64,000 bases of DNA from an uncultured Eisenbergiella sp. (GCA_947630215.1 CANRGX010000006.1:30407-94406); one strand, 5' to 3'; counted from the stretch's first letter, positions 36,901 to 63,855 are shown. Numbers and translations are program-made. Notes: generated from the sequence alone by a model not told the origin.

Positions 36901-38118
36901 GTGGCCTTGCTGGAGATAAAAGAGAAAGATGCGGAGTCCGCAGCGAAGATCATTGTGATCGGAGTAGGGGGTGCGGGCAATAATGCTGTCAATAGAATGA
37001 TTTCCGAACAGATCGGCGGCGTAGAGTTTATCGGAGCCAATACGGATAAGCAGGCACTGCAGCTGTGCAAGGCGAGGGATCAGATTCAGATTGGCGAGAA
37101 GCTGACCAAAGGGCTGGGCGCAGGCGCAAGACCGGAGATTGGCGAGCAGGCCGCTGTAGAGAGTTCAGAAGAAATTTCCAAGCATCTGGAAGGCGCGGAC
37201 ATGGTTTTCGTGACCTGCGGCATGGGCGGCGGTACAGGTACCGGCGCGGCTCCCGTGGTAGCGAAGCTGGCAAAGGACAAGGGGATCCTGACCGTCGGTG
37301 TCGTGACCAAGCCCTTCCGGTTTGAAGCCAGAACCCGTATGAACAATGCGCTTTCCGGCATAGAGAAGCTGCGGGAGAACGTGGATACCCTGATCGTGAT
37401 CCCCAACGATAAGATCCTTGAAATTGTGGACAAGCGCACCAGTATGCCCCAGGCGCTGATGAAAGCGGATGAGGTGCTGCAGCAGGCCGTACAGGGCATT
37501 ACTGACTTGATCAATGTGCCCGCCGTCATCAATCTTGATTTTGCGGATGTGCAGACGGTCATGCGGGACAAGGGGATTGCCCATATTGGGATCGGCGAAG
37601 GAGAGGGCGAGGAAAAAGCGGTGCAGGCTGTCAAGGCAGCGGTGGAGAGCCCGCTTTTAGAGACCACCATTTCCGGCGCCACCGATATTATTGTCAATAT
37701 TTCCGGCGATATTTCCATGTTTGACGCTTCGGATGCCGTGGACTATGTGAGGGAGCTCACCGGCGACGATGTGAATATCATTTTCGGCGCCATGTACGAC
37801 GAGTCCCAGACCGACACCTGCCGCGTCACGGTAATCGCCACGGGGATCGACGAAGCGCCCGCTTCGAGGTTTTCGACCTCGTTTGCGAAGAAGCCCGGGA
37901 TACCCGGTATGCCGGGGATTGCCGGCAAAAAGAGCACGGTGAACGCATCCGGCACCACGACGGCCAAGCCCTATGCGGGATCCCTGCAGCCCGGAGGCGG
38001 TCAGGGAGAGGGCAGACCGATGCCCACAGGTATTCCGAAGGCACCCACCAGTCTCCGGAGCCAGGTAGAGGAAAAATCCTTAAAGATTCCGGATTTTCTG
38101 CAAAAGAACAACCGATAA
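36901..38118 (+). CDS. ftsZ: Cell division protein FtsZ
   Basis: [31 protein letters not shown] tubulin signature; GTG start. Confidence 0.96.
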
Positions 38119-38129
38119 GAGAACACAGC

Positions 38130-38158
38130 AAGGGACGGCGCAAGGCCGTCCCTTTTTT
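38130..38158 (+). terminator. Rho-independent terminator after ftsZ
   Basis: AAGGGACGGC-gcaag-GCCGTCCCTT then T run. Confidence 0.93.
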
Positions 38159-38176
38159 CGCCTAAATGGGACATCC

Positions 38177-38252
38177 TGTCGAAAAGATGCGAAAAATTCA
38201 GATAATATCCTGACGGAATCCGACAAATTCCGCGCAGGATTTTTTTTATAAT
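38177..38252 (+). promoter_or_regulatory. spoIIG-type promoter with 0A-box-like sites
   Basis: TGTCGAA (38177-38183, exact 0A-box core); TCCGACA (38219-38225, one mismatch to TTCGACA); TATAAT 38247-38252; long -35/-10 spacing. Confidence 0.65.
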
Positions 38253-38310
38253 GCAGAAAGGACAGGGCGGTGCCGCCTGCCTGCCGCACAGACAAAGGGG
38301 AGGCGAGAGA

Positions 38311-39171
38311 ATGCGTTACAGCCTTTATGTGGATCGGCTCTTTCTTTTGCACTTTGGCATGGAAGTGCTGCTGCTTTGGCTGACGGCCCTGCTGGCGCAG
38401 ATGCGGCTGAAGCGTCGGCGGCTGCTGCTCTGCGCGGCGCTTGGCGCAGCGGTTTCTCTGGCGCTGCTGTTGTGGGGCGGGCCGCTGATGCGCAGACCGG
38501 GTTGGCGGATCTGTCTCATGGCGGTAAAAAGCCTGCTTTTGGTGCAGGCAGCCTTTGGCCTGCAGGAGAGAAAAGCGCTGCGAAACGCCCTGGGGTGGTA
38601 TGCTGCGGCCTCCCTTCTGCTGGGCGGGGCGCTGACAGCCTGGGACGGTCTTCTGGGCACCGGGCAGAAAAAGAGCGCGCTCCAGATCTGGATCCCGGCT
38701 GCGGTGGCCGCGGCCGTCGGCGGTTTCTTTTTAAAGAAGGAGAGGAGGCAGAAAAAAGAACTTCTGTGCACCGTCCGTCTGCGGGAAGGGGAGCGGGAGA
38801 CAGAAATCACCGCATTCTGGGACAGCGGGAATGGGCTGCGCGATCCGATATCGGGCCGTCCCGTCTGCGTGGCGGAAAGATCCGTGCTGGAAGAACTGGG
38901 GCTTTTGAACCGGCCGGAGCGGATCCGGGCCATCCCCTATCACTCCGTCGGAAGGGCGCATGGAATCCTCTACGCGGCCGAGGTGGAGAGGCTCTACATC
39001 AGAAGGAACGGCCAGGAAATTGAAAAGAGGGGCGTTCTGATCGCCGCCAGCGGGCAGAAGCTGTCCGCGCGCGGAACCTGTCGGATGCTTTTGCATCCCA
39101 CACTTTTGGAAGAAAAGAAAGGAGAAAACCATGATATTGAAAGTCGCGATGCCGGGAAAGATGCAGTTTAA
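38311..39171 (+). CDS. spoIIGA: Sigma-E processing peptidase SpoIIGA
   Basis: N-terminal multi-TM region; [19 protein letters not shown] aspartic-protease-like motif; precedes sigE. Confidence 0.9.
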
Positions 39172-39871
39172 GATCATCCGCAGGGAACCGGCGTTTTTTC
39201 TGGCAAAGGAAGGGGATATCCATTACATAGGGGGAGCGGAAATCCTGCCGCCGCCCTTAGAGAGCGCCCAGGAGAGCGAAGTGATTGAGGATCTCAATTC
39301 GGAGGAATTTGCGCAGGAGGCCCGTTCCATCCTCATTGAACACAATCTGCGGCTGGTCGTATACATAGCAAAGAAATTTGACAATACGGGAGTGGGCGTG
39401 GAGGACCTGATCTCCATCGGAACCATCGGTCTGATCAAGTCTATCAACACTTTTAATCCGGGGAAAAAGATCAAGCTGGCAACCTATGCTTCCCGGTGCA
39501 TTGAGAATGAGATCCTCATGTATCTGCGCCGCAACAGCAAGACCCGCATGGAGGTTTCCATCGACGAACCGCTGAATGTGGACTGGGACGGCAACGAGCT
39601 TTTGCTGTCCGATATTCTGGGGACAGATGAGGATGTCATTTATAAGGATTTGGAAAACGAAGCGGAACGCAGGATTTTACGGAAGGCCGTGAGCACCCTT
39701 TCGGAACGGGAGCAGCGGATCATCAATCTCCGCTTCGGCCTGAATTCGCCCGACGGCCGGGAGATGACCCAGAAAGAAGTGGCGGCTTGTCTGGGCATTT
39801 CCCAGTCCTACATTTCCCGCCTGGAAAAAAAGATCATGCGGAGACTGAAAAAAGAGATTGTCAGACAGTGA
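39131..39871 (+). CDS. sigE: Sporulation sigma factor SigE
   Basis: [62 protein letters not shown]. Confidence 0.95.
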
Positions 39872-41173: not shown

Positions 41174-41239
41174 TACTATATATATAATTAAATATAATTG
41201 GGTAAATATTTTCAGATTGTTACAGGTGAGGTGGCAAAT

Positions 41240-44200
41240 ATGAAAACATTATGGACAATTCGGAGAAGGCTTTTGGCGGCAATGCTGTGTTTGTGCATGA
41301 TTCTTCCTGCTTTTGCCCTGATGGATACGACGTATGTGATGGCGGAATCTTTGGAGGAATCGGAGGAGATGGCTTCTTTGCCGCAAAGTGAAGCGGAAAC
41401 AAAACTGGAGGAAGAAGGGGACGGAATGGTGCAGTCGTCCCTGGAATCTGAAGACTATGATCAGGAAGAACCGGAATCAGAGCAGGAAATAGGTGCGGAT
41501 CCCGAAACCAAACCGGAAGAGACAGAATCTGACGGACAGGGAGAAACCGTCTTGATCCGTGGATTTGTTCCGTTGGAAGATACGGTGTCAAGGCAAACGT
41601 ATCCGGTAGGGACGCCGCAGGAGGCCCTCCTTTTGCCGGGCGAACTGGAAGCCGAAAACGAGGGAGGAACGGAGATACTGCGGATCCCTGTAGCATGGGT
41701 TTCTGAACCGGGATTTGACGGGAATACGCAGGGAGAATATGCTTTTTCACCGGTACTGTCGGATGGAACAGAGTATAAGGTGGCGGAAGGCACAGAGCTG
41801 CCTGTCATTGTCGTGTCCGTGACTGCGGAACCGTCCGACGGGGAAAATGCAGAAGACGGGACGGAGACGGCGGAGAGCCAGGAGACGCAGAGCATATCGG
41901 AAATCGAAACGGAAACGGAAATCGAAACGGAAACAGAAATAGAGAGTGAAACAGAAATAGAGAGTGAAACAGAAATAGAGAGTGAAACAGAAACAGAGAG
42001 CCAAACAGAAGGGGAGACAGAACTTGAAACGGAAAGCCCTACGGACGGACTGAAAAAAATAGACGGCCGCAGGTCGTTGCGCCGTTCTGCGTCCGGTGAT
42101 CCTGTGGCCTCTGGAGATCTGACGGTCCATAAGACTGTGGTAGATAGAGACGGAAGCCCGAGCAAAAAGGAATGGCATTTCAAAGTCGAACTTAGCGACA
42201 GTTCGATTAACGGAACGTATGGGGGCATGACCTTTACGGACGGCGTTTCCGAGTTCACGCTGAAAAACGGGACTGATATAACGGCGGAGGGACTGCCGGA
42301 TGGGATTACCTATACGGTAACAGAGAAGGAAGCGGATACGGACGGATATATCACGACCGTGTCCAAAACGGTGCGCAGCGAGGGAGCAGACGATGCAACC
42401 TACAGCGGAACGGATGCGCAGGAGGGGACGATACAGAATGAAGCGACGGCGGATCTTTATTTTGTGAATGAGAAGGAAGTGATTTATCTCCCCGCGTCCG
42501 GAGATCTCACCGTTCATAAGGAAGTAAAAGGCAGCAGCGCAGATGGGGACAGAGAATGGCATTTTACGGTACAACTCAGCGACAACTCGATCAACGGGTG
42601 GTATGGCGATCTCTACTTTGACTACGGCGTTGCTGACTTTACGCTGACAGACGGGGAGACCGTAGCAGCAACGAATCTGCCGGTGGGGATTACCTATACG
42701 GTAACGGAGCAGGAAGCGAATACAGACGGATATACGACGACGGTAGGCAAAGAAATCAGAAGGGACCGTTACGGGTACGCGTATGTCGAGGAAACCTACA
42801 GCGGGACAGATGCACAGGAAGGGATCATAGAGGACGGCGCGACAGCGGATCTTTATTATGTCAATAATATGGAACCTGTCGGGGATCTGGCTGTTTATAA
42901 GAAAGTGTTGGGCAGTGGTGCGGACCGGAGCAAAGAATGGCACTTTAGAGTAGAACTCAGCGACCGCTCGATTAAGGGGCAGTACGGGGATATGAACTTT
43001 GCGGACGGCGTTGCTGAATTTACGCTGCGCGACGGGCAGGATATCTGGGCCTATGATTTGCCGGCAGGCGTTACTTATACGGTACAGGAAAAGGAAGCCG
43101 ATCAGGACGGGTATGCGACCACGGTAACCAAGGAAATCACAAGGGATGGTTCCTGGGGAAAAGATGAAGCATACAGCGGGACCGGCGCCCAGACGGGGAC
43201 GATAGAAGACGATGCTGCAAACAAGATTACCTTTGTAAACAATGCGGAACCCGCCGGCAAGCTGAAAGTCGGGAAGAAAGTCATAGGGACGGCCACGAAA
43301 AAGGAATGGCATTTCACGGTGACGCTCAGCGACACTTCCATTACCGGCACTTACGGAGAGATGGAGTTTCAAAAGGGTGTTGCTGAGTTTACGCTGAAAG
43401 GCGGATATGATAAAACGGCAAAAGGTCTGCCGGTGGGGATTACCTATACGGTAACAGAAGAAGAAGCTAACCAGGACGGAAATATTACGACCGTGACCAA
43501 AAAAGTCAGCAATGATGACAACGGGCGCGACTTGGAAACATATACCGGGGAGGATGCACAGAAGGGGACGATTCAGGACCGCAGGAGTTCGGATATCCTT
43601 TTCGTGAATGCTTCTGGCGATTTGGTTTCTTCCACCGGTGATCTGCTTATAACAAAGACCGTAGAAGGAAATGCCGGTGAAAAAGAGGATAAGAAATGGA
43701 ATTTTAAGATAGAACTCGGCGACAAAAAGATCAATGGATGGTATGGGGATCTGTATTTTACAAACGGCGTCTCCTACTTTAACCTGGCGCACCAGGAAAA
43801 AGCTGCTGTGAGAGATTTGCCGGCAGGCGTCACCTATACGGTGACAGAAGTCGAAGCAAATGAGAACGGATATACGACAACCGTAAAGGAGATTGTTCAT
43901 GGCAGGGAAATTACAGGAGACGGTGCAGGCGTCGTTGAAAGCGATGCCACAGGCAACCTTGCATTCCTGAACAGACGGGATACTTTCGGCACCGGGGATC
44001 TGGAGATTTCAAAGACGGTGGAAGGCGATTCTGGTGACCAGAAGACGGAATTTCCCTTTACGGTTACCCTGAGAGACTCCTCGATCAACGGGAAATACGG
44101 AGATATGGAATTTAAAAACGGGGTTGCGCACTTTACCCTGAAGCATGGAGAGACCAAAACGGCAACGGGTCTTCCGGGCGGCCTTCTCTATACGGTGACG

Positions 44201-47200
44201 GAACCGGGGGAGGAGTACGGCTACACGGTGAGGGCGACAAACGCAAAAGGGAAAATTATTGATAAAGAAACCGTCCGGGCAGCGTTTACCAATTCCAGAT
44301 CCGGATTTGGAAATCTGGAGATTCATAAGTCAATTTATGCCGATACTATTGACAGCAAACAGGAGTTCCATTTTACGGTCACCCTGTCCGATCCCACGAT
44401 CAATGGGAAATACGGAGATATGGAATTTAAAAACGGGGTTGCGCAATTTGAAATGACTGTTTGGGACGTCAAGAAGGCAGAGAAGCTTCCGGCGGGCGTT
44501 ACCTATACGGTAACGGAGGAAGAAAACCCCGACAGATATCTGGCAGTTGAGAATAACTTAACCGGGAAAATCAAAAAAGGAGAAACTGTTTCCGAAACCA
44601 TTACAAATTATCGTCACTATGTCTACAAAGATTGGTGGTGTCCTGACGAGGGGGACACCGGTCCGCAGGTAGGCGATACCATTCGGTATAGTATTACGTA
44701 TGGAAACGGTTCCCAGGAGACACAGACAGTCGTCATTACGGATCCGTTGGATCCGGGGGTGGATTTTGTATCCGCCACAGATGGAGGTGTGTACGATCCG
44801 GCAACCCACACGGTGACCTGGACACTGAATGACGTGGTACCGTACCCCAGCCTCAGCATTAAACCCCCTCAGGTGTATCTCTATGTGAGGATCAATGAAA
44901 AGGCCCTGGAGGACGCCGAAAGGACGGTAGAAAACCAGGCGGCAATTCAGTTTGGACACGATCCCAAGATTACAACAGATACGGTAACCACGGAGGTCGG
45001 ATGCGGGAATTTATCGGTTAAAAAGACCGTGACAGGCAACGCGGGGGAACTGAACCGGTATTGGAACTTTACGGTCGTATTGAGCGACACCAGTCTCTCG
45101 GGATGGTACGGGAATATGAGCTTTAGAAACGGTATCGCCACATTTACGCTGAGAAGCGGAGATACCAAGACGGCGAAAGGCCTCCCGCCGGGGATTCGCT
45201 ATACGGTAACGGAGACAGAAGCGAACGCGGACGGTTATACGACGGTAAAAGAGAATGATACAGGCGAAATTCTGGAAGACCGCACGGCTGTTGCAACCTT
45301 TATCAATAGACGCAGCTTTGCGCAGGCTTCCCTGGCGGCCCATAAGGATTTAAAGGGAATGGAAACGGGCGATACCGGAACGTATCGATTTGACTTTACG
45401 CTGACGCCGGTTGCAGGTAGCGGAACGGATGCTCCGGAAAATCCTGTGAAATCGGCCCAGTCACAGAGTGTAACCGTCAACCAGGGGAACGGGTGGACAC
45501 AGACCACCGGCAATTTCTTCGAGGGCGTGTCCTTCCGGGAGAATGGCAAATATTACTACACGCTTGAGGAGACGGGTGGTTCATACGACGATGTGGAAAA
45601 TGACGGAACGAAATACGACATACAGATCGATGTGACGGAAAACCCGGCGGGAGAGCGACAGGCCCAGGTATTTTACCGGATCGCAGGCAGCGGGGACGAT
45701 TGGACCCAGGCCGATGCGGACGCAGGAACAGGACTATATTCCCTGACGTTTACCAACCGGAGGAAAGCGACCGCATCCTTAAAGGTGAAGAAGATCTTTG
45801 AAGTCGGCCCTCACGGAAGTCATCTGGGTCCGAAGACCTTTACATTCCATCTGATGCCGGATGCGGGTAACACGGTGATACCGGCAAAGGATACGGTAAC
45901 GGTGACAGTTGACAGCGACCATGCTGAGGGAGACGGCAGTAAATGGGTCAATATCAGTACGGAGGATTTCTTTGACGGTGTTGTATTTGAGGCAGGCGCC
46001 TATTCCTATACGCTGCAGGAAGAAAGTGTAACGCTTTATCCGGGCGTACACTATGACCATAGCGTTTATAAGGTTGTAGTGACTGTGTCAGAGGCAGGGG
46101 ACGGCTCGCTTCAGTCAGTGGTGACGATTGACGGTACAGGCAGTTCGGATAGTGCGGTCGTCAATTTTACAAACAGCTATGAGCCGACGAAGGCGTCCGT
46201 GAACCTGAAGGGTAAAAAGACGCTGAAAGGCGGTACGTTTACAGACGGGGAGTTTACCTTTGTCCTGTCGGCGGATAAGAATACGCCGTGGCCTGACGAT
46301 GTGACTCCGATAATGGAAACGGACGGCTGGACGTGTGAGGCGAAAAACATAGGCAATACCTTCTCATTTGGAAATATCACCTATGAAAAAACCGGCACAT
46401 ATATCTATCAGATTTGTGAAAAGCTTGGCACGCGTACAGATATCAAATACGATGACACCACATATACGGTGACGGTGGTCGTAGAGGAAGGAACGATTGC
46501 CGGCGACGACACCTCTGAGGGTGTGGAGAGCATGACGAGAACGATCTCCTATAAGAAGAACGGCGAACCTGTTTCGATCACAGACGGCTATGTTCCCTTT
46601 ACGAATGAAAAGAAGTTTGGCGATCTGACACTCACAAAGACAGTGGAGGGCAGCGCAGGCGAAACGGACAGGGAATGGCACTTTACGGTTACCTTAAGTG
46701 ACAAGACGATTTCCGGGATCTATGGGGATATGGAATTTACGGACGGTGTTGCGCAGGTGACGTTGAAGCATGGGGAGTCAAAGACAGCTCGGGATCTGCC
46801 GGCAGGCGTTGCTTATACCGTAACGGAGAAAGAAGCGAACCAGGACGGTTATGAGACGTCTCAGGAAGGGGAAACAGGAAGTATTCTTGCAGGTGCCGAG
46901 ATGCAGGCAGATTTTGTCAATCAAAGGCAGAAAAAAGAGAGCTCCAGTTCAGAAGAAACCAAGGAAGAACAAGATGTACCGCCCGAGGAGACCCCTTCGG
47001 ATCCTCCGGTTGAGCATTCGTCCGTGCAAGAGATCAAAGAAACGATGCCCATAGATGAAGAAGGGATGCATGCAGATGTGCATGCAGATGTGCTTGCAGA
47101 GGTGCATGCGGAGGTGCTGGCAGAGGTGAAAACGGAGGACGCTCAAGGCGTGCTTTCCTCTGTGAAAACCGGAGACGACGCTCCTCTTGTGCCCTATGTT

Positions 47201-47275
47201 TGTTCCGCAATAGCAGCGATGCTCCTTCTGGGCGTACAGATGACATGCAGGCGGAGAAAAAAACGGGGAGAATAA
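41240..47275 (+). CDS. Giant surface protein: signal peptide, E/T/S-rich stalk, about nine DUF7601/CnaB-like repeats, DUF11-like module, three FctA-type pilin modules, C-terminal sortase-like signal
   Basis: Repeated GDLTVHKTV...EWHF.V.LSD.SI.G.YGDM.F..GVA.FTL..G....A..LP.G.TYTVTE.EA..DGY; C-terminus SVKTGDDAPLVPYVCSAIAAMLLLGVQMTCRRRKKRGE. Confidence 0.85.
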   Translation: MKTLWTIRRRLLAAMLCLCMILPAFALMDTTYVMAESLEESEEMASLPQSEAETKLEEEGDGMVQSSLESEDYDQEEPESEQEIGADPETKPEETESDGQGETVLIRGFVPLEDTVSRQTYPVGTPQEALLLPGELEAENEGGTEILRIPVAWVSEPGFDGNTQGEYAFSPVLSDGTEYKVAEGTELPVIVVSVTAEPSDGENAEDGTETAESQETQSISEIETETEIETETEIESETEIESETEIESETETESQTEGETELETESPTDGLKKIDGRRSLRRSASGDPVASGDLTVHKTVVDRDGSPSKKEWHFKVELSDSSINGTYGGMTFTDGVSEFTLKNGTDITAEGLPDGITYTVTEKEADTDGYITTVSKTVRSEGADDATYSGTDAQEGTIQNEATADLYFVNEKEVIYLPASGDLTVHKEVKGSSADGDREWHFTVQLSDNSINGWYGDLYFDYGVADFTLTDGETVAATNLPVGITYTVTEQEANTDGYTTTVGKEIRRDRYGYAYVEETYSGTDAQEGIIEDGATADLYYVNNMEPVGDLAVYKKVLGSGADRSKEWHFRVELSDRSIKGQYGDMNFADGVAEFTLRDGQDIWAYDLPAGVTYTVQEKEADQDGYATTVTKEITRDGSWGKDEAYSGTGAQTGTIEDDAANKITFVNNAEPAGKLKVGKKVIGTATKKEWHFTVTLSDTSITGTYGEMEFQKGVAEFTLKGGYDKTAKGLPVGITYTVTEEEANQDGNITTVTKKVSNDDNGRDLETYTGEDAQKGTIQDRRSSDILFVNASGDLVSSTGDLLITKTVEGNAGEKEDKKWNFKIELGDKKINGWYGDLYFTNGVSYFNLAHQEKAAVRDLPAGVTYTVTEVEANENGYTTTVKEIVHGREITGDGAGVVESDATGNLAFLNRRDTFGTGDLEISKTVEGDSGDQKTEFPFTVTLRDSSINGKYGDMEFKNGVAHFTLKHGETKTATGLPGGLLYTVTEPGEEYGYTVRATNAKGKIIDKETVRAAFTNSRSGFGNLEIHKSIYADTIDSKQEFHFTVTLSDPTINGKYGDMEFKNGVAQFEMTVWDVKKAEKLPAGVTYTVTEEENPDRYLAVENNLTGKIKKGETVSETITNYRHYVYKDWWCPDEGDTGPQVGDTIRYSITYGNGSQETQTVVITDPLDPGVDFVSATDGGVYDPATHTVTWTLNDVVPYPSLSIKPPQVYLYVRINEKALEDAERTVENQAAIQFGHDPKITTDTVTTEVGCGNLSVKKTVTGNAGELNRYWNFTVVLSDTSLSGWYGNMSFRNGIATFTLRSGDTKTAKGLPPGIRYTVTETEANADGYTTVKENDTGEILEDRTAVATFINRRSFAQASLAAHKDLKGMETGDTGTYRFDFTLTPVAGSGTDAPENPVKSAQSQSVTVNQGNGWTQTTGNFFEGVSFRENGKYYYTLEETGGSYDDVENDGTKYDIQIDVTENPAGERQAQVFYRIAGSGDDWTQADADAGTGLYSLTFTNRRKATASLKVKKIFEVGPHGSHLGPKTFTFHLMPDAGNTVIPAKDTVTVTVDSDHAEGDGSKWVNISTEDFFDGVVFEAGAYSYTLQEESVTLYPGVHYDHSVYKVVVTVSEAGDGSLQSVVTIDGTGSSDSAVVNFTNSYEPTKASVNLKGKKTLKGGTFTDGEFTFVLSADKNTPWPDDVTPIMETDGWTCEAKNIGNTFSFGNITYEKTGTYIYQICEKLGTRTDIKYDDTTYTVTVVVEEGTIAGDDTSEGVESMTRTISYKKNGEPVSITDGYVPFTNEKKFGDLTLTKTVEGSAGETDREWHFTVTLSDKTISGIYGDMEFTDGVAQVTLKHGESKTARDLPAGVAYTVTEKEANQDGYETSQEGETGSILAGAEMQADFVNQRQKKESSSSEETKEEQDVPPEETPSDPPVEHSSVQEIKETMPIDEEGMHADVHADVLAEVHAEVLAEVKTEDAQGVLSSVKTGDDAPLVPYVCSAIAAMLLLGVQMTCRRRKKRGE
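41930..42001 (+). repeat. 18-bp tandem repeat (GAAACAGAAATAGAGAGT) encoding ETEIES
   Basis: Three identical copies plus a fourth degenerate copy, with related 12/18-bp units upstream. Confidence 0.9.
47072..47131 (+). repeat. 12-bp degenerate tandem repeat encoding (H/L)ADV/AEV units
   Basis: GCAGATGTGCAT GCAGATGTGCTT GCAGAGGTGCAT GCGGAGGTGCTG GCAGAGGTGAAA. Confidence 0.85.
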
Positions 47276-47398: not shown

Positions 47399-48154
47399 AT
47401 GAAAGAGTCCCTGGAAAGCCCGGAAATTTTCAACGTGCGGTTTGATAATATGGTATTAGAGCAAGCCAGTCAGAAGGCCCAGGAAATGCTGCAAAGCGAT
47501 TCCTGGCATTATATTGCCGGTACGAACGCCAATCTGCTGCGGATGGCCCGCCGGAATCAGCGGTACCGCGACGCGATCAATCACGCCGATCTGTCCCTGG
47601 CGGATGGGTACGGGGTGATCTGCGCATCCCGCATTCTGGGGACTCCTCTGGTGGAAAGGGTTGCCTGTATCGATCTTTTGGATCAGCTTTTGCCCCAGCT
47701 GCAGGGGGTACGGGTCTTTCTTTTGGGAGGAGAGCCGGGAAGGGCCAAAAAAGCGGCAGACCGCCTGCAGCAGCAATATCCGGGGTTGATTCTGTGCGGT
47801 TTTTGCCATGGCTATCTGGATTCGGACGAAATGGCAAAAGCGGCGGCCCGGTACCGGCCGGATCTTCTTCTGGTCTGTCTGGGCTCTCCCAAGCAGGAGC
47901 TGTGGATGGCGGAATATGGGCCAAAAACAGGAGCCAGACTTGCCTGCGGCTGCGGGGGCTGGATCGACATCTGTGCGGGAAAGCTGAAGCGGGCTCCGGA
48001 GAGCTGGCGCCACCGGAACCTGGAATGGGCGTTTCGTCTTCTGCAGGAGCCCTGGCGCATCGGAAGGGTTTTTTTGTCCCTGTCCCTGCCCCTTCTGGCT
48101 CTCTGGGAAGCAGCAGGAAAAAGACTGGCATGCCTATGGGAAAAAGAGGAGTAG
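47399..48154 (+). CDS. WecG/TagA/CpsF family glycosyltransferase
   Basis: HYIAGTNANLLRMARRN...HADLSLADGYGVICASRILGTPLVERVACIDLL; LLLVCLGSPKQELWM. Confidence 0.9.
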   Translation: MKESLESPEIFNVRFDNMVLEQASQKAQEMLQSDSWHYIAGTNANLLRMARRNQRYRDAINHADLSLADGYGVICASRILGTPLVERVACIDLLDQLLPQLQGVRVFLLGGEPGRAKKAADRLQQQYPGLILCGFCHGYLDSDEMAKAAARYRPDLLLVCLGSPKQELWMAEYGPKTGARLACGCGGWIDICAGKLKRAPESWRHRNLEWAFRLLQEPWRIGRVFLSLSLPLLALWEAAGKRLACLWEKEE

Positions 48155-48158
48155 CATC

Positions 48159-49568
48159 ATGGCGGGGAAAAAGAAAAAGAAGGCCGTGCGCAGGCCGGCG
48201 CAGCCGGCCGGAAAAAAACTGGAACCCCAGCAGGTCTGTGAGGATATGGCAGAACTGTATCTTCTGGCAGTTTTCGGCTTTTTTCCTCTGATGATTGGAA
48301 TGGGAGACTACGGGTACGCCAATCTGGTGGAAATGAAAGCCTACATCTGGTTTGGGCTCACTGCTTTCTGGGCTCTCTGCCTGGGTGGCTATCTGCTCTG
48401 GTGCAAAAAGACAAAACAGCCCATTACCGTGCGCTTTCACTGGTTTCACGGTGTTGTGGCGGCTTTTTTTGTGATCTGCGTCCTTTCCGCGTGTCTTTCC
48501 GGGTCGGTTGGGGACAGTTTGTTTCTGATGCAGTCTTCCAACACCAACAGCGTCCTTTTTATGGCTTCCTACGCGGCTGCGTTTCTTGGCGTCTCGCTTT
48601 TTGGACATCTGAAGGCTATCCATATCCGGGCGCTTGGCGTCTCTGCTTTTTTGACCGGACTGCTTTCGGTGTTGCAGCTGGGCGGGCGCAATCCGCTGCT
48701 CATGTATCCGGAAGGACTGAATTATTATAACAAATATCAGGAGTATACAGGCGCGTATCTTGGAACGCTGGGGAACGTGGATGTCTTTGCCGCATTTCTC
48801 TGTTTTACGGTTCCGGTACTTACCGTTTATGCCTGGCGTTCCGACTGCAGGAAGGATCGTCTTTTGTGGATTCCTGCGCTGCTGTCTCTCTATGTGCTGT
48901 TTGCGTGCGATGTGGACGCAGGAAAGGTGGCGTTCCTGGCCGGCCTGCTGTTTGTCCTGCCGGTGGTTATTCCGAATCCGGTATGGGCCAGAAGGGTAGG
49001 AATTCTCTGTGCAATAACAGCTGTCCTGGGGGTGGTCGTCATTTATTTCTGGCCGGGGGAGTCGGGTTTATTCCATGAGGCGTCCGCTATTCTGCACGGA
49101 CAGATGGCCCCATCCTTCGGACATGATCGGGTGGGAATCTGGCAGCAGGCCTGGGCATCTGTCACCCGAAGGCCTGTTTTGGGCAACGGGCCGGGTTCCG
49201 GCGCCTGGCTGATTGATATGCGGACGGTGAATGAGGAACGCGGCCGGATTGTAAGCGTCCGCAACGCGCATAATACCTACCTGGGCTATTGGATGGACAC
49301 CGGCATTCTGGGATTGTCCTGTTATCTGATCCTGATTGGAGCCGGGTGTTTTGCCTGGGTGAAAAACCGGAAGGAAGCTTTGACGGCCGCTCTGGGCGCG
49401 GGGGTAGTCTGGTATCTGATTCAGGATTTTTTCAATATCAATGTGGTGACCACCGCTCCGTTTCTCTGGATCAGCCTGGGACTACTGGCCGGAAAATGGG
49501 GAGAAAAAGGAGAGAAGACATATGGGGCGCACCAGGCTGCGGAACAAAAGAAACCAATCCGGGGATGA
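48159..49568 (+). CDS. O-antigen ligase (WaaL/Wzy-like) family membrane protein
   Basis: Polytopic; GHDRVGIWQQAWASVTRRPVLGNGPGSGAWLID...NAHNTYLGYWMDTGILGL. Confidence 0.82.
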   Translation: MAGKKKKKAVRRPAQPAGKKLEPQQVCEDMAELYLLAVFGFFPLMIGMGDYGYANLVEMKAYIWFGLTAFWALCLGGYLLWCKKTKQPITVRFHWFHGVVAAFFVICVLSACLSGSVGDSLFLMQSSNTNSVLFMASYAAAFLGVSLFGHLKAIHIRALGVSAFLTGLLSVLQLGGRNPLLMYPEGLNYYNKYQEYTGAYLGTLGNVDVFAAFLCFTVPVLTVYAWRSDCRKDRLLWIPALLSLYVLFACDVDAGKVAFLAGLLFVLPVVIPNPVWARRVGILCAITAVLGVVVIYFWPGESGLFHEASAILHGQMAPSFGHDRVGIWQQAWASVTRRPVLGNGPGSGAWLIDMRTVNEERGRIVSVRNAHNTYLGYWMDTGILGLSCYLILIGAGCFAWVKNRKEALTAALGAGVVWYLIQDFFNINVVTTAPFLWISLGLLAGKWGEKGEKTYGAHQAAEQKKPIRG

Positions 49569-50391
49569 ATTGAGACCGCAGGAGGTTCTGGACAGACTTT
49601 TTTCCATGCTCAGCACGTTTGCCGATTATTGTGATGCCAACAAAATCCGCTATTATCTTTGCAGCGGGACCTTGCTGGGAGCGGTACGCAATCAGGATCT
49701 GATTCCATGGGACAATGATCTGGATGTGTTAGTCCCGCGGCCCGATTATGACCGGCTGCTTTTGAGCGTTTCGGGGACCACCCTGGGAGGATATATGCTC
49801 TTTGCCTACGAAAAGGGCAATTCTTTTTTTCCACACGCAAAACTGGCGGATACCGGAACCTATATTCCGGATCCCTCCCTGGGCGTTCCTCATCTGTGGC
49901 TGGATATTTTCCCCATGGACGGACTGCCGCAAAATCCGGTTGTTTCCGCTTTCTGGCTTAAGTTTGCGCAGGGACTCAAGCGCTTCCCCTCATGGGACGC
50001 CCTTCCCTGGCTGTTATCCCGGCCTACGCTGGGAAAACAGATCGGACGCCTGCTTTTTGTCCCACCGGTCAAACTGATTGGTCATTTGGGGGGAAAGGGA
50101 TTCTGGACTAGGAAGGTCATCCGGTATGCAAAACGGTTTTCTTTTACAGAAAGTGAATTTGTAGGAGGTGTGGTTTCCAGCTCCGGGCCGGGGGAGAGGA
50201 TGCCCCGGGATGAGTTTTTACAAAGGGTAGAGGTTACCATACGGGACAGGACGTTTCACGCTCCCGCCTGCTGGGAAAGGTATCTGCGGCAGTTGATAGG
50301 CAGCGACTGGCGGATACCGCCGGAGAAAGCAAAACGGCCGTCCATGCAGAGGGTACTGTTAGTGGAAACGACAGAGAAACCGGCCGTCTGA
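49522..50391 (+). CDS. LicD family phosphotransferase
   Basis: YLCSGTLLGAVRNQDLIPWDNDLDVLVPRPDYDRLL. Confidence 0.88.
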   Translation: MGRTRLRNKRNQSGDELRPQEVLDRLFSMLSTFADYCDANKIRYYLCSGTLLGAVRNQDLIPWDNDLDVLVPRPDYDRLLLSVSGTTLGGYMLFAYEKGNSFFPHAKLADTGTYIPDPSLGVPHLWLDIFPMDGLPQNPVVSAFWLKFAQGLKRFPSWDALPWLLSRPTLGKQIGRLLFVPPVKLIGHLGGKGFWTRKVIRYAKRFSFTESEFVGGVVSSSGPGERMPRDEFLQRVEVTIRDRTFHAPACWERYLRQLIGSDWRIPPEKAKRPSMQRVLLVETTEKPAV

Positions 50392-50410: not shown

Positions 50411-51151
50411 ATGCGGGTAAAAAAAATAGCGCTGATCTTTGCGGGCGGCTCCGGAGAACGGATGGCGAACGCATCGGCCCCGAAACAGTTCTGGGAACTG
50501 CAGGGCAAGCCGGTTCTGGCATATACGCTGGAACAGTTTCAGGTTCATAAGGAAATTGACGGGATTGTGCTGGCGGCTCCGGCGGACTGGCTGGAGTATT
50601 GCACAGAAATGGGAAAGCGCTGGCATTTTGATAAGCTTTCGGCGGTGGTTCCCGGCGGAACGTCCGGCCAGGCGTCCATTTTTGCCGGCCTGCAGAAAGT
50701 GAGGCAGTTATACGGAGAGGAAGCGGTGGTTCTGATCCACGACGGCGTGCGGCCGCTGATTGACGGGGAGACGATTACAAAATGTATCCAATGCGTGCAG
50801 CGCTTCGGTTCCGCCGTCACCGTATCGCCCCAGACGGAAACGGTTATGATTCGGGAAACAGACGGGGATCGCTGCCGGATCGTGGATCGGGACAAATGCC
50901 TGGTGGCCAGGGCGCCGCAGTGTTTTCCCGTGCGGGACATCCTGAGGGCGCATGACAGGGCGGCGGCCGACGGTAAACACGGTTTTATCGATTCCGCCAG
51001 CCTGATGGAGCACTACGGATACGAGATCCATCCTGTGATGGGTCCTTCAGATAATATCAAGATTACCACAGCGCTGGATTTTCGGATTTTCTGTGCCGTC
51101 ATAAAGGAGCGGGAAAAAAAAGAGCAGGACGGGGGGAGTGTGGGCCCATGA
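50411..51151 (+). CDS. IspD/TarI family cytidylyltransferase
   Basis: IFAGGSGERMANASAPKQFWELQGKPVLAYTLEQFQ; IHDGVRPLID; APQCFPVRDI. Confidence 0.87.
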   Translation: MRVKKIALIFAGGSGERMANASAPKQFWELQGKPVLAYTLEQFQVHKEIDGIVLAAPADWLEYCTEMGKRWHFDKLSAVVPGGTSGQASIFAGLQKVRQLYGEEAVVLIHDGVRPLIDGETITKCIQCVQRFGSAVTVSPQTETVMIRETDGDRCRIVDRDKCLVARAPQCFPVRDILRAHDRAAADGKHGFIDSASLMEHYGYEIHPVMGPSDNIKITTALDFRIFCAVIKEREKKEQDGGSVGP

Positions 51152-52227
51152 TTCCGGAAGACGACTGTGCTTACATTTGTGCGGCAGATTTTCTGCCCTG
51201 GGAGAAACTGCGGGGGAAGGTTATCCTGCTCACCGGGGCGACGGGACTGATTGGGCGCACCCTGACGGATGCGCTGCTTTTTGCAGGGGAAAAAAGAAAA
51301 CTGGGCCTGTCTGTCCTGGCTCTTGTAAGAGATGAAACGCAGGCACGGAAAGTATTTGCAAAACATCTGGAGAACGGACGCCCTCTGCGTCTGCTGGAAG
51401 GGACCGTGGAACATCTGCCCAAAATCAGTGGGCCGGTGGATTACATTTTGCACGGTGCGGCCCGGACGGAGAGTAGTGCTTTTGTCCGGCAGCCCGTGGA
51501 GACGGTAAAAACCGCTGTGCTGGGGACTTTGCAGCTGTTGGAACTGGCACGGCGAAAGCAGATATCCGGTTTTGTCTTTTTGTCCAGCATGGAGGTATAC
51601 GGCTATCCGGCGCGCGGACACAGGGCGCAGGAGACGGATGCGTGCGCTCTGCGGCCCGGTGAGGTGCGCCACAGCTATCCGATCAGTAAGCTGCAGTGCG
51701 AGAATCTGTGTTGCGCATATGCGTCCGAATATGGCGTCCCCGCCAGAATCATCCGGCTGACCCAGACCTTCGGCCCGGGCGTACGTCAGGAGGATCCCCG
51801 CATCTTTGCGGAGTTTGGCCGCTGTGTCCGCGACGGGCAGGATATTGTGCTGCACACGCAGGGCAGGACCGAACGCAGTTATCTGTATACCGCCGACGCG
51901 GCCACGGCGATTCTGACCGTCCTGTTAAAGGGGGAAAACGGGCAGGCCTATAACGCGGCGGACGAACGCACCTATTGCTCGGTGGCGCAGATGGCGCAAA
52001 AGGTGGCCGGCGCCTATGGGATCGGCTTGCGTTTTCAGCCGGAGGACGGTCAGGAACACGGGTATGCTGATCTGCTGTTTATGGATTTGGATACCTCCCG
52101 GCTGAAAAAACTAGGGTGGTATGCGGGAAGCTGCAAAGAGGGGGATCCGCTGCTGTATCTGTACGAACGGATGATACAGGACAGCTTCGGCGGCGGGAAG
52201 ACCGCCGAAAGGGGCCGGATCGGATAA
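51148..52227 (+). CDS. NAD-dependent epimerase/dehydratase (extended SDR)
   Basis: VILLTGATGLIGRTLTDALL; FLSSMEVYG; YPISKLQCENLC. Confidence 0.88.
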   Translation: MIPEDDCAYICAADFLPWEKLRGKVILLTGATGLIGRTLTDALLFAGEKRKLGLSVLALVRDETQARKVFAKHLENGRPLRLLEGTVEHLPKISGPVDYILHGAARTESSAFVRQPVETVKTAVLGTLQLLELARRKQISGFVFLSSMEVYGYPARGHRAQETDACALRPGEVRHSYPISKLQCENLCCAYASEYGVPARIIRLTQTFGPGVRQEDPRIFAEFGRCVRDGQDIVLHTQGRTERSYLYTADAATAILTVLLKGENGQAYNAADERTYCSVAQMAQKVAGAYGIGLRFQPEDGQEHGYADLLFMDLDTSRLKKLGWYAGSCKEGDPLLYLYERMIQDSFGGGKTAERGRIG

Positions 52228-52238
52228 AGGAAACGAAG

Positions 52239-55200
52239 ATGCGAGAAGACTGTACGCAGCAGATTGCCGGAGAAGCAAAAAAGCAGTCCCTGTTGGATCC
52301 GAAAGGATGCGCAGGCGTACTGGATATTGTTCGGCTTTTTTTTGCCATATGTGTGGTCGCCATTCATACCCATGCGCCAGACGGTCTGCCCCAGGCGCCG
52401 GCCTTCTGGATCACCCAGGGCATTTTGCGGCTGGCGGTGCCGTTCTTTTTTGTCACGTCCGGGTTTTTCCTGGGAAGAAAAATAGACGGACAGGGGCAGG
52501 ATGTGCTGGCGGTGCTTTCCCGGTATACCCGCCGGCTTCTGATTCTCCTTCTTCTGGCGGGCGGGGCGAATGGGGTGCTGGAACTGTTCACCCAGCGGCT
52601 GGTGTATCATAAAGGCCTGCGGTACCTGGCGGGCGATTTTATCCGGCATGTCCTGTTTTATCCCTATGGAGCCATGTGGTTTGTGCAGGCGTGCATCGTT
52701 GGGGCGTGGATGTTGTATCCGTTTTTAAAAAGAAAGAAAAACGGCCTTGCCCTGCTTGCCGGAGGCGTGCTCTACAGCTGGGCCCTGTTGTGCAATACGT
52801 ATTATTTTCTCGCCCAGAAAGCGGGATGGGACAGCGCGGCAGATTCCTTCCTGGATTGGTTTCTTTCGGCAAGAAACGGTGTGTTTGTGGGCTTCTTTTT
52901 CCTTTCTCTGGGAATCGGGACATGGAAATGGTACCGTGCAGGACGCGGTAGAAATGCACGATACAAATTTCTGGCCTGTGCCGCGGCCCTGTATGCGGCA
53001 GAAATTTATCTGACGCAAGGCTGCGCCTATCGGGACGACCGGGCGCTGTACCTGGCGCATATCCTGTTGGTGCCTGCGCTGATTCTCTGTCTGGCGGACA
53101 GCAGGCTGCCGATTCCGGCCCGTCTCGCCTGCAGGTTCCGAAGGGCCAGCGCGTGGCTGTATGTTTCCCATCGCTTTCTTTATGGGCTGGGAGGACTGAT
53201 TTGTTTGTCGGTCTATCGGACGCAATGGCGGGGAGCAGGCGCCTTTACGGCGGTGCTGGCGGCGGGTGCGTTGGGCTTTTTGGTGCTGGAAGGCTGGCGC
53301 AGGACCCGCAAGAGGGCACGGGCCGCGCTCTCTTTATTTGCGGCTGTCGGGATGCCGGTTCTGATTTGTTTTTTCTTATTCCTGGAGTTTCGGGATCACA
53401 AAATCTGGGAATTTTCCGCCTACGGGGTCGGTACGGATTTGGCAGGGACGGCCTGCACCGGCAGTTTCGATCAGGGAGAGGTGGTTCTGGAAAATACCGG
53501 AAGCGGCAAACTGGTGCCTTACGGAGCGGACGGTCTGAGCTTTTATTATACGAAGCTGGACGCCGGGCGGGACAATTTTGTGTTGTCCGCGCTGGTGACT
53601 GTAGATTCCTGGACGTTGACCAACGGGGAGGACGACGGCTTCGGCCTGATGGTCAGCGATGCCGTGGGCAGACATGGGGACAATACGGATTTCTGGAACA
53701 ACGGGTATCAGGCGGTGGTCACAAAAGTGGAATACCGATGGAATCCCGAAACAAAGAAAGCGTCCAATGTGGGGGATCCTGTGATCATGCGTCTGGGGAT
53801 TGGGGCACGGGAAAAAAGCGGTTCCACAGAGCCGTATCCGGAGGATACGCAGAAAGCGGCGCATACGCAGAAGGTCACAACCTGTACCCTGGAGGAATCC
53901 CAGGGACGAAAGGGCCCGGGCACGTATAACCTAATCGGAAACGGCACGCCCATTGCCGGATCCGGAGGAGAACAACATCTGCCGGCAGGAACGGTGGGAG
54001 AGGAAGAACGGCTCACATCGGTCAGGCTCGAGATATGCAGGGATAACACCGGGTACCGGGTCCGTTATCTGGAAGAAGACGGGACCGTGCATGAAAAGCT
54101 GTTTTACGATCTTGCGGGAGAGAAGCTGACCGCAATCGATCCGGAACATATTTATGTGGGATTTTTTGTGACAAGGCAGGCGAAGGTTTCCTTTCGGGAG
54201 ATGAAGCTGACGGTAACGGACAGAAAGACGGATCCGGCGGCGGAGAAAATCCTGCCCGAAGTGCTGGAACCGGATTACCAGGTGATCAGTTCCCATACGT
54301 CGAACACGGCGGACTATGAACTGATCTTTGAGACAAACTGGGACGGCGCGCTGTCCGTAAGAGAGGAAAACGGCGCCTGGCTTGTGACTGACAGGGCCCT
54401 GAAAGCCGGGGAGCAGTTTTCCCTTTCCTGTCGGCTTAAGGAGGGAGAAAACCGCTATGAGATTGTCTTCCGCCCAACCCCCGGGGAAGCGGCCGGGCGT
54501 GTCCTGTCTGACGTTTCCCGGACGGTCTTCTGGCATACGGTCTTATGGAAAAAGATCGGGGACCGGAAGGGCGATATTTACACTTCTCCGGATCCCCAGG
54601 GGCCGGGAACCGGGACGAAGGACAGCCCGATCAGCCTGACGGAGGCGATACAGTACGCCGCGCCCGGCCAGAGGATCCTTTTGACGCAGGGAGAATATCT
54701 GCTGTCGGAACCGCTTACCATAGAACGGGGGCATGACGGGACGCTGTCTGCGCCTGTCCGTCTGATGTCCGATCCGACAAATACGCAAAGACCGATCCTG
54801 AATTTCCAGGGGAAATGCAAAGGACTGACGCTGTCTGCCGATCACTGGGTTTTGGAAGGCTTTGCCTGCACCGGATCCGCCGCAAACGAATATGGGATCC
54901 ATCTGACCGGAAGCCATAACCGGCTGGAGGATCTGCAGCTTTATCGAAACGGCAACACCGGCTTGCATATCAGCAGTTTATCCCTCTGGGATGAGAAGGC
55001 ACAGTGGCCGTCAGACAACCTGATCCGAAACTGTGCGTCCTATGGCAACTGTGACGATGCCTATGCGGACGCGGACGGATTTGCCTGCCAGTTTACGGCG
55101 GGCCCCGGCAATGTGTTCGACGGATGCTGCGCCCACCACAACGCGGATGACGGCTGGGATCTTTATGCGAAGGTATGGCTGGATGTGCTGGGGCCGGTCA

Positions 55201-55649
55201 CGCTGCGAAACTGTACCGCCTATTGCAACGGGTATCTGGAGGATGGCAGACCGGCCGGAAACGGAAACGGGTTCAAGCTGGGCGGCGACGGTATGCCGGG
55301 AGGGCACCGGCTGGAAAACTGTCTTTCCTATGAAAACAGGAGGGACGGTTTTACCTCCAACTGCTGCCCGGATGTCACGCTGATTGACTGCACGGCAGTG
55401 GATAACGGAGACCGCAACCTCCGCCTGTATACAAATAACGGAAAAAACACCTCCTATCTGGTGCGGGGCTTCTGTTCCTGGCGGACGGGGGAAAAGACCG
55501 GAAATTCTGACGTTCTGCAAGGATACGGGACACAGAAAGCGGAGGATTTGTATCGGGAAGATAACTATTATTGGGATGCCACGCGACAGGCGGCGATCAA
55601 CAGCAAAGGGGAAGGGAAGGGATCGATTCCTTTTTTGCTGGGGGACTAG
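52239..55649 (+). CDS. Multi-domain protein: acyltransferase-3 membrane domain, LamG-like region, PL9-like right-handed beta-helix lyase
   Basis: GVLDIVRLFFAICVVAIHTH...GILRLAVPFFFVTSGFFLGRK (AT3); GDIYTSPDPQGPGTGTKDSPISLTEAIQYAAPGQRILLTQGEY...NADDGWDLYAKV...GNGFKLGG (PL9-type). Confidence 0.82.
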   Translation: MREDCTQQIAGEAKKQSLLDPKGCAGVLDIVRLFFAICVVAIHTHAPDGLPQAPAFWITQGILRLAVPFFFVTSGFFLGRKIDGQGQDVLAVLSRYTRRLLILLLLAGGANGVLELFTQRLVYHKGLRYLAGDFIRHVLFYPYGAMWFVQACIVGAWMLYPFLKRKKNGLALLAGGVLYSWALLCNTYYFLAQKAGWDSAADSFLDWFLSARNGVFVGFFFLSLGIGTWKWYRAGRGRNARYKFLACAAALYAAEIYLTQGCAYRDDRALYLAHILLVPALILCLADSRLPIPARLACRFRRASAWLYVSHRFLYGLGGLICLSVYRTQWRGAGAFTAVLAAGALGFLVLEGWRRTRKRARAALSLFAAVGMPVLICFFLFLEFRDHKIWEFSAYGVGTDLAGTACTGSFDQGEVVLENTGSGKLVPYGADGLSFYYTKLDAGRDNFVLSALVTVDSWTLTNGEDDGFGLMVSDAVGRHGDNTDFWNNGYQAVVTKVEYRWNPETKKASNVGDPVIMRLGIGAREKSGSTEPYPEDTQKAAHTQKVTTCTLEESQGRKGPGTYNLIGNGTPIAGSGGEQHLPAGTVGEEERLTSVRLEICRDNTGYRVRYLEEDGTVHEKLFYDLAGEKLTAIDPEHIYVGFFVTRQAKVSFREMKLTVTDRKTDPAAEKILPEVLEPDYQVISSHTSNTADYELIFETNWDGALSVREENGAWLVTDRALKAGEQFSLSCRLKEGENRYEIVFRPTPGEAAGRVLSDVSRTVFWHTVLWKKIGDRKGDIYTSPDPQGPGTGTKDSPISLTEAIQYAAPGQRILLTQGEYLLSEPLTIERGHDGTLSAPVRLMSDPTNTQRPILNFQGKCKGLTLSADHWVLEGFACTGSAANEYGIHLTGSHNRLEDLQLYRNGNTGLHISSLSLWDEKAQWPSDNLIRNCASYGNCDDAYADADGFACQFTAGPGNVFDGCCAHHNADDGWDLYAKVWLDVLGPVTLRNCTAYCNGYLEDGRPAGNGNGFKLGGDGMPGGHRLENCLSYENRRDGFTSNCCPDVTLIDCTAVDNGDRNLRLYTNNGKNTSYLVRGFCSWRTGEKTGNSDVLQGYGTQKAEDLYREDNYYWDATRQAAINSKGEGKGSIPFLLGD

Positions 55650-55670: not shown

Positions 55671-55699
55671 TTGACATAAAATGGGATTTTCGTTATAAT
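55671..55699 (+). promoter_or_regulatory. SigA-type promoter for nrdR
   Basis: TTGACA, 17-bp spacer, TATAAT; followed by GTATAA-AA-TTATAC inverted repeat (55700-55713). Confidence 0.88.
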
Positions 55700-62694: not shown

Positions 62695-63855
62695 ATGGGC
62701 AATGTAATACTGATCGGATTTATGGGATGCGGAAAGAGCAGCGTGGCGGTGAAACTGTCTTATCGGCTCAAGCAGTCGATGACGGATACGGACAGATGGA
62801 TTGAGAAGAAGCAGGGGAAAAAGATCGCCGAGATTTTTGAACAGGACGGCGAGGAGGCCTTCCGGCAGATGGAGACCCAGGCGCTGCAGTATCTGAAGGA
62901 AAATGCGAAAAATCAGGTGATTTCAGTGGGCGGCGGTATGCCTGTCCGGGAAGAAAACCGGGCGCTGATGAAGGAAATCGGGAAGGTGGTCTATCTGCGG
63001 GCAACGGCGGAAACGCTGTATGAGCGCGTGAAGGAAGACGGCGCGCGCCCCCTTTTACAGTGCGAGAATCCCTTTGAACGCATACAGGATCTCCTGGAGG
63101 CCCGCAAAGGGGCTTACGAAGCGGCGGCGGATATTGTGGTGGATGTGGACGGAAAGAATTTCGGACAGATCCTGTTTGAGATTGAACGGGCGCTGCGGCC
63201 CGCGCCCCGTCCTTATCCCGGCCCTTACCGCGCCGGGGAAGAAGGCAGATTTATCGGGAGGCTGCCCGGATTGGGGCGGTACGGACACCAGAATCCGGCA
63301 CACGATCTGGATCCGCTGACTGCCGGCCTGCTCGACCAGCCGGAGGAGACGGAGAAAGAGGCCGCGCAGAATATGCCGGAGGAAGAAGAAAAAGAGCCCG
63401 GCTGTGAGTTGAAACGGCTTTTGGTGATCAACGGCCCGAATCTGAACTTTTTGGGAATCCGGGAAAAAGGCGTATACGGAACCAAGGACTATGCCTATCT
63501 GCTGGATCTGATCGCGCGGAAGGCAAATTCCTGCAAGGCGCGGATAGAGGTGTTCCAGTCCAACCACGAAGGGGCCATCATCGACCGCATTCAGGCGGCG
63601 TATTTTGACGGGACCCAGGGAATTGTCATCAATCCCGGCGCATATACGCATTACAGTTACGCGATCCGGGACGCGCTGGCCAGCGTTTCCATGCCCAAGG
63701 TGGAGGTGCACATCTCCAATATCATGGAGCGGGAGGAGTTCCGCAAGGTATCCGTAACGGCTCCCGCCTGTGACAGACAGATTTACGGACACGGGCTGGA
63801 AGGGTATCTGGAGGCCGTCGATTTTATCCTGGCCGGCGGTCTGGAAGATAGATAA
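62695..63855 (+). CDS. Fused shikimate kinase and type II 3-dehydroquinate dehydratase
   Basis: N-term NVILIGFMGCGKSSVAVKLSYRL..DTDRWIE; C-term RLLVINGPNLNFLGIREKGVYG...INPGAYTHYSYAIRDAL...VEVHISNIMEREEFR. Confidence 0.93.
   Translation: MGNVILIGFMGCGKSSVAVKLSYRLKQSMTDTDRWIEKKQGKKIAEIFEQDGEEAFRQMETQALQYLKENAKNQVISVGGGMPVREENRALMKEIGKVVYLRATAETLYERVKEDGARPLLQCENPFERIQDLLEARKGAYEAAADIVVDVDGKNFGQILFEIERALRPAPRPYPGPYRAGEEGRFIGRLPGLGRYGHQNPAHDLDPLTAGLLDQPEETEKEAAQNMPEEEEKEPGCELKRLLVINGPNLNFLGIREKGVYGTKDYAYLLDLIARKANSCKARIEVFQSNHEGAIIDRIQAAYFDGTQGIVINPGAYTHYSYAIRDALASVSMPKVEVHISNIMEREEFRKVSVTAPACDRQIYGHGLEGYLEAVDFILAGGLEDR

Follow-up and report, generated by a model that had tools for sequence, protein, structure and literature searches.

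Gene cluster and reading frame

The window, a stretch of 64,000 nucleotides from an uncultured Eisenbergiella sp., carries a surface-glycan gene cluster on the plus strand. The cluster contains genes encoding a WecG/TagA-type glycosyltransferase (positions 47399–48154; PF03808), a Wzy_C/O-antigen ligase family protein (48159–49568; PF04932), a LicD family protein (49522–50391; PF04991), an IspD/TarI-type cytidylyltransferase (50411–51151; PF01128), an SDR sugar epimerase/dehydratase (51148–52227; PF01370) and a protein in which an acyltransferase-3 (AT3) domain is fused to a domain of polysaccharide lyase family 9 (PL9) (52239–55649). These genes form a tight run with gaps of 4, −47, 19, −4 and 11 bases; the 47 bases shared by the Wzy and LicD frames occupy positions 49522–49568. 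A 12/12 sigma-70 promoter (55671–55699, plus strand), recognized by its match to the consensus, precedes nrdR, which suggests that the operon probably ends after the AT3–PL9 gene. The Rfam scan of the window gave no match.

The continuous frame of 1136 amino acids reported in the preliminary description is open throughout at 52239–55649. Its ATG codon at 52239 is located 11 bases after the stop codon of the preceding SDR gene, with AAAGGA seven bases before the start codon; GTG at 52116 in the same frame is an alternative upstream start, possible in principle. The encoded protein is composed of the Acyl_transf_3 domain, a membrane helix, a module of about 390 amino acids and the PL9 beta-helix, and the domain search proposed earlier detected both ends above the Pfam cut-offs.

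AT3 domain and predicted membrane topology

The AT3 domain (residues 28–341; 52320–53261, plus strand) matched PF01757 with 61.3 bits at a cut-off of 31; the scores of the four orthologs described below (L035, L036, L037 and G820) range from 55.7 to 74. The motif R-X10-H, assigned to AT3 helix 1 in PMC9833829, is represented by R32…H43 (52332–52367, plus strand) and is present also in L036 and G820, with K-X10-H instead in L035 and L037. In helix 3, the window protein and L036 contain RYTRR, and the split orthologs contain RYTIR, RYTVR and RYTLR; the arginine spacing kept across all five is R-X3-R, the family motif on the cytoplasmic face of this helix being RXXR. Because of this spacing, and of the lysine in place of the first arginine in L035 and L037, AT3-mediated acyl transfer by the window protein is treated here as a predicted activity.

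Of the initial designation ‘OatA-type acyltransferase-3’, the AT3 assignment stands, but no SGNH family was matched in the protein with Pfam, and the best curated neighbor of the N-terminal domain in NCBIfam is the membrane domain of VanT, far under its cut-off (60.9 bits versus 900). A sequence search of the PDB with the AT3 domain gave no match, and the full-length AlphaFold model (pLDDT 42, pTM 0.31) is unusable.

Simple hydropathy analysis resolved eight peaks, against the ten helices expected for AT3 and an 11th for an outer domain. These peaks include an extra membrane helix at residues about 364–382 (53328–53384, plus strand; peak 2.54), a homologue of the helix that anchors the split orthologs. 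PMC7448272, PMC9558356 and PMC9833829 describe AT3 domains as moving acyl groups through the membrane, and the 11th helix of AT3–SGNH proteins as placing the partner domain outside. Since this logic carries over to helix 364–382, the PL9 domain is likewise predicted to be extracellular and close to the membrane, a position from which it could reach polymer during synthesis or anchoring.

Spacer module and PL9 domain

Residues about 388–777 (53400–54569, plus strand) form a spacer module of no known family. The region had been called LamG-like, but no LamG match was obtained, and neither Pfam nor the PDB gave a match with the single sequence or with a seven-member profile. The spacer is not peculiar to the AT3–PL9 protein, being present also in PelX-type PL9 proteins of Lachnospiraceae.

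The C-terminal part (residues about 778–1136; 54570–55646, plus strand) is assigned to the right-handed beta-helix lyases of PL9. The beta-helix anticipated there was recovered by two families above their cut-offs, Beta_helix (PF13229; residues 877–998; 39.4 bits, cut-off 25.9) and Pel9A-like_beta_helix (PF22842; residues 925–1058; 31.4 bits, cut-off 25.2). The closest solved structure in the phmmer search against the PDB is Pel9A (1ru4, E 1.6e-26), followed by a PL9 rhamnogalacturonan lyase (5olq, E 1.4e-12). The PelX equivalog NF041903 matched the stretch 591–1058 with 200.8 bits versus a cut-off of 1490.

The site of Pel9A, which we take to comprise the Ca2+-binding residues D209, D233, D234 and D237 and the lysine base K273, has its counterparts in the putative Ca2+-binding D946 (55074–55076), in D970, D971 and D974 of the motif DDGWD (55146–55160) and in K1013 (55275–55277), the presumed catalytic base, all on the plus strand. 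The 1ru4 alignment pairs ADGF, DDGWD and NGFKLGG of the window protein with ADGF, DDGFD and NGFKLGG of Pel9A, with all five residues matching, and the distance from the first aspartate to the DDGWD motif is 24 in both proteins, which bears out the spacing claimed earlier. K1013 sits three residues further along than the lysine of Pel9A, and a loop accounts for the shift. The five residues are identical in 25 of 25 aligned sequences, including the five AT3-linked proteins. Judging by this alignment, the lyase site is intact, and the predicted activity is Ca2+-dependent beta-elimination of a uronate polymer.

The AlphaFold model of the PL9 part, built with four sequences (pLDDT 60, pTM 0.69), does not allow conclusions on the geometry of the active site. 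The top five PDB matches of this model in Foldseek are the PL9 structures 5olq/5olr and 1ru4 (TM 0.54–0.55, rmsd 4.5–5.7), followed by a PL6 lyase; the low-confidence model agrees with the PL9 assignment made from sequence.

Fused and split orthologs

The pair of AT3 and PL9 was found in five genomes, namely, those of the window, L035, L036, L037 and G820, and the orthologs are 62–71% identical to the window protein per half. L035, L036 and L037, uncultured Lachnospiraceae MAGs with isolate names starting with ‘Lapin’, were retrieved by a scan of GTDB species genomes, with residues 1–1125 covered and an identity of 64–66% in the best segment. G820 was found among 47 genomes of the genus of L035.

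In L036, AT3 and PL9 are encoded in one frame, as in the window. The continuity of the window frame is confirmed by this independent genome, and the window fusion is therefore not an assembly join. An assembly join or a frameshift error merging two genes in the window, an explanation to which the split genes of three orthologs lend some color, is extremely improbable, since the frame of L036 also runs unbroken across this linker, whose length differs between the two genomes by a single gap of 36 bases, divisible by three. By these comparisons, the fusion in the window is genuine, though not the defining feature of the system.

L035, L037 and G820 encode the halves in separate ORFs that overlap in different frames, G820 being split as L035 and L037 are. 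A frameshift revealing two genes, which the preliminary description had set against its own reading, is absent from the window but is literally present in these three genomes. In L035 and L037, a TAG codon in the linker ends the AT3 frame, and the PL9 frame is already open upstream of it. In all three split orthologs, PL9 lies in the −1 frame relative to AT3. Each of the three has an ATG codon of the PL9 frame at the same place, with GGAGGA five bases upstream (start context GGAGGACTTTTATG in L035 and L037 and GGAGGATTTCTATG in G820), and separate initiation of PL9 is for this reason preferred over programmed −1 frameshifting; inspection of the AT3 frame of the split overlaps by eye revealed no canonical X XXY YYZ heptamer. 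At their N-terminus, the split PL9 proteins would have a cationic tail plus one membrane helix that corresponds to the final helix of the fused proteins; membrane tethering of PL9 is thus predicted to be retained in either arrangement.

The dN/dS values of the window gene versus its orthologs are 0.13–0.25. For L035 and L037, the two closest split orthologs, the values are 0.31 for AT3 and 0.22 for PL9, and both halves are therefore apparently kept by selection as separate genes also; purifying selection appears to act on AT3 and PL9 alike, split genes included. With two genes in three of the five genomes, it is the partnership that is conserved among them, and not the covalent fusion.

The PL9 tree leaves the branching of L036, G820 and the L035/L037 pair undecided. 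The identity of AT3 is 73–88% among the three split forms and 67–71% between them and L036; because these values group the split forms, a single split of an ancestral fusion is the more economical history, two fusions being a possible alternative.

Distribution and phylogeny

The full-length query was searched at the level of the family (396 genomes), the class (388), the order around the genome of L035 (391) and the two genera (13 and 47), with overlap among these sets. For long queries, scoring mostly covered only the two best candidates of each genome, so weak and distant cases could escape. Within this scope, closely related AT3 and PL9 occur together only in the genome of the window, the three ‘Lapin’ MAGs and G820; the 12 further members of the window’s genus gave no such pair, with the best two candidates per genome mostly scored.

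PL9 with the spacer is widespread in the family, but no match starts before about residue 385, and no AT3-like sequence is present in the stretches upstream of 29 such matches. The tree of spacer and PL9 places the five AT3-linked proteins in a single clade (100/100), which a long branch separates from 20 PelX-like relatives. Another protein with PL9 and the spacer, encoded in L085 (6055–8394), apparently has no signal peptide (start MSKRKLEW) and is perhaps cytoplasmic; its gene directly follows an ORF resembling a GH43 by look.

Conservation of the gene neighborhood

Each of the four orthologous loci has homologues of TagA, Wzy and LicD upstream of the pair (five of five with the window). 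The SDR gene is also upstream in all of them except L036, where a glycosyltransferase gene occupies its place. At the position of IspD, L035 contains a Bac_transf sugar transferase gene, and the other orthologous loci contain similar ORFs. Downstream of the pair, the orthologous loci continue with runs of ORFs that resemble glycosyltransferases by look.

In G820, the next gene encodes a nucleotide-sugar dehydrogenase (TIGR03026, 306.7 bits, cut-off 189.8), with its ATG codon one base past the PL9 stop codon; the nearest equivalog is UDP-glucose 6-dehydrogenase, with 539.8 bits, under its cut-off of 757. Because a homologue of UDP-glucose 6-dehydrogenase directly follows PL9, the G820 cluster probably makes a uronate polymer, as the lyase would require. 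The window’s own cluster contains no uronate-making gene; two dehydrogenase-family matches of the window’s genome are both on another contig, and the genome of L036, a MAG of completeness not established, gave no such match. The earlier proposal of a link to the adjacent glycan genes gains from the neighborhood kept in five genomes and from the UDP-glucose dehydrogenase homologue in one.

Just upstream of the glycan genes, the window encodes a surface protein of 2025 amino acids (41198–47275) with matches to DUF7601/DUF5979 and FctA (Spy0128-like isopeptide). Similar repeat proteins are encoded upstream of the cluster in L035, L036, L037 and G820, and the adhesin and the glycan cluster may travel together.

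Proposed function and alternative explanations

The proposed role of the membrane-tethered lyase and acyltransferase is to edit, as a pair, the cell’s own uronate glycan, to which we assign a probability of about 0.55, with substrate and activity predicted. The N-terminal AT3 domain would take acyl groups, probably acetyl, over the membrane; the 11th helix would lead the chain outside, and the spacer would keep the PL9 lyase close to the outer face of the membrane. There, the Ca2+-dependent PL9 domain would cut by beta-elimination a uronate polymer made via the flanking TagA/Wzy/LicD genes, limiting chain length, clearing stalled polymer or releasing polymer, and the AT3 part would O-acylate the same polymer. 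The halves would act as a pair, with one chain being optional. Topology, substrate, acyl group, chemistry and the trimming role are all predictions; the cell’s own glycan is the likeliest substrate because of the placement outside the membrane and the conserved gene neighborhood. Pointing against glycan editing are the resemblance of the nearest outside PL9 relatives to PelX pectinases, K-X10-H in place of R-X10-H in L035 and L037, the window cluster’s lack of a uronate-making gene and the GH88/GH105 matches described below.

Alternatively, a PelX-type dietary pectate lyase was captured behind AT3, which would serve mainly as an anchor, the substrate being plant polygalacturonate and the neighborhood incidental. 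Such a surface pectinase is rather unlikely, though the homology of PL9 and the spacer to PelX-type proteins and the pectin encountered by gut Lachnospiraceae speak for it. The window’s genome, moreover, contains four GH88/GH105 matches, because of which its organism may use unsaturated uronides. However, no GH88/GH105 match was found in the genomes L035–L037, and no PL1 match in four genomes checked, these three included (MAGs of completeness not established), which argues against pectin feeding in L035–L037. The glycan-gene neighborhood is maintained in five genomes, purifying selection acts on AT3 even as a separate gene, and the long branch separates the AT3-linked clade from the secreted PelX-like proteins; a membrane-held lyase beneath a Gram-positive wall would also be ill placed for large plant polymers.

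That AT3 acylates the cell’s glycan and PL9 cuts something else, the two being joined by co-transcription and gene overlap, would suit the two genes in three of five genomes, and nothing points to functional coupling; independent activities are nevertheless improbable, given that in each of the five genomes the two lie side by side within this cluster and that the pair is absent elsewhere in the searched genomes (best two candidates per genome in most cases). Carbohydrate-active folds with binding-only roles are known generally, but a PL9 domain acting as a binder or a dead enzyme that holds polymer for acylation is very unlikely, considering that all five catalytic residues are invariant in 25 relatives, the five AT3-linked ones included, and that the PL9 half shows the lowest dN/dS.

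Editing of the cell’s own glycan by the pair is thus the reading preferred here. The preliminary description had proposed a single tethered enzyme that acylates and cleaves a uronate polymer; AT3 and PL9 on one chain and a site intact by sequence remain of this, with the outside placement predicted, but a single enzyme is not essential, as three orthologs have two genes. Partially supported, the interpretation no longer centers on one enzyme with two functions; in its place stands a conserved pair, AT3 and a membrane-tethered PL9, encoded in a surface-glycan cluster. A more specific and decidedly tentative scheme is that the AT3 half acylates the emerging polymer and the fused PL9 cuts only unacylated sites, the ratio of activities setting chain length or release. 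If true, one membrane enzyme would write and read an acyl code of its own uronate glycan.

Comparison with known systems

Pel9A (1ru4) and other PL9 pectate lyases, as well as PelX-type pectate disaccharide-lyases, have the same beta-helix and the same order of four Ca2+-binding aspartates and lysine. PelX-like proteins of Lachnospiraceae share the module of spacer and PL9 with the AT3–PL9 protein; unlike it, most of them are large and composed of many domains, a signal peptide is visible in several, and none was seen with AT3 in the genomes searched.

The acyltransferases of the AT3–SGNH type (OatA, OafA, OafB and PglI) resemble the AT3–PL9 protein in the N-terminal AT3 domain, the 11th helix and the extracytoplasmic sugar-acting C-terminal domain, according to PMC7448272 and PMC9558356; their C-terminus is an acyl-transferring SGNH domain, whereas a lyase is found in the AT3–PL9 protein. 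Fusions of the VanT type similarly join an AT3-like membrane domain to a foreign C-terminal enzyme, which is a racemase and not a lyase, and the score of the window protein is far below the VanT cut-off, as given above. The fusions of AT3 commonly described in the available parts of PMC9558356 and PMC9833829 are those with SGNH and racemase domains, and a lyase partner is not mentioned there; no AT3–lyase fusion was found in the literature searched, consisting mostly of freely readable papers.

AlgL clears alginate from the periplasm (PMC8829089), RbmB is a predicted beta-helix lyase in the biofilm gene cluster of Vibrio cholerae (PMC11637428), and PelA and PgaB join a deacetylase to a hydrolase (PMC5933820). 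In these systems, as with AT3–PL9, a degradative enzyme is encoded with the genes of the cell’s own polysaccharide, and PelA and PgaB also combine an acyl-modifying and a cutting domain. They differ in belonging to other folds or families and to Gram-negative bacteria, and the acyl modification runs the other way, acetyl groups being taken off by PelA and PgaB and acyl groups put on by AT3. Accordingly, AT3–PL9 is a variation on known kinds, namely, AT3 partner fusions and glycan-cluster lyases; the parts and the way they are paired are well supported, and substrate and mechanism are predicted.

Fused in two genomes and encoded by overlapping genes in three, the same two activities provide a natural test of how AT3 proteins cooperate with partner domains. 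The system suggests that a pectinase-type fold has been recruited to edit the own surface glycan of a gut Gram-positive bacterium, as with AlgL and RbmB in Gram-negatives. Annotations as ‘pectate lyase’ in such clusters could mislead when fiber degradation is deduced from genomes.

Other genes of the window

Close upstream of the glycan cluster, genes encoding FtsZ, SpoIIGA and a sigma factor, probably SigE, were found (36901–39871). An ORF of 386 amino acids at 62695–63855 has matches to shikimate kinase (residues 10–165) and type II dehydroquinase (residues 242–378), an apparent aroK–aroQ fusion.
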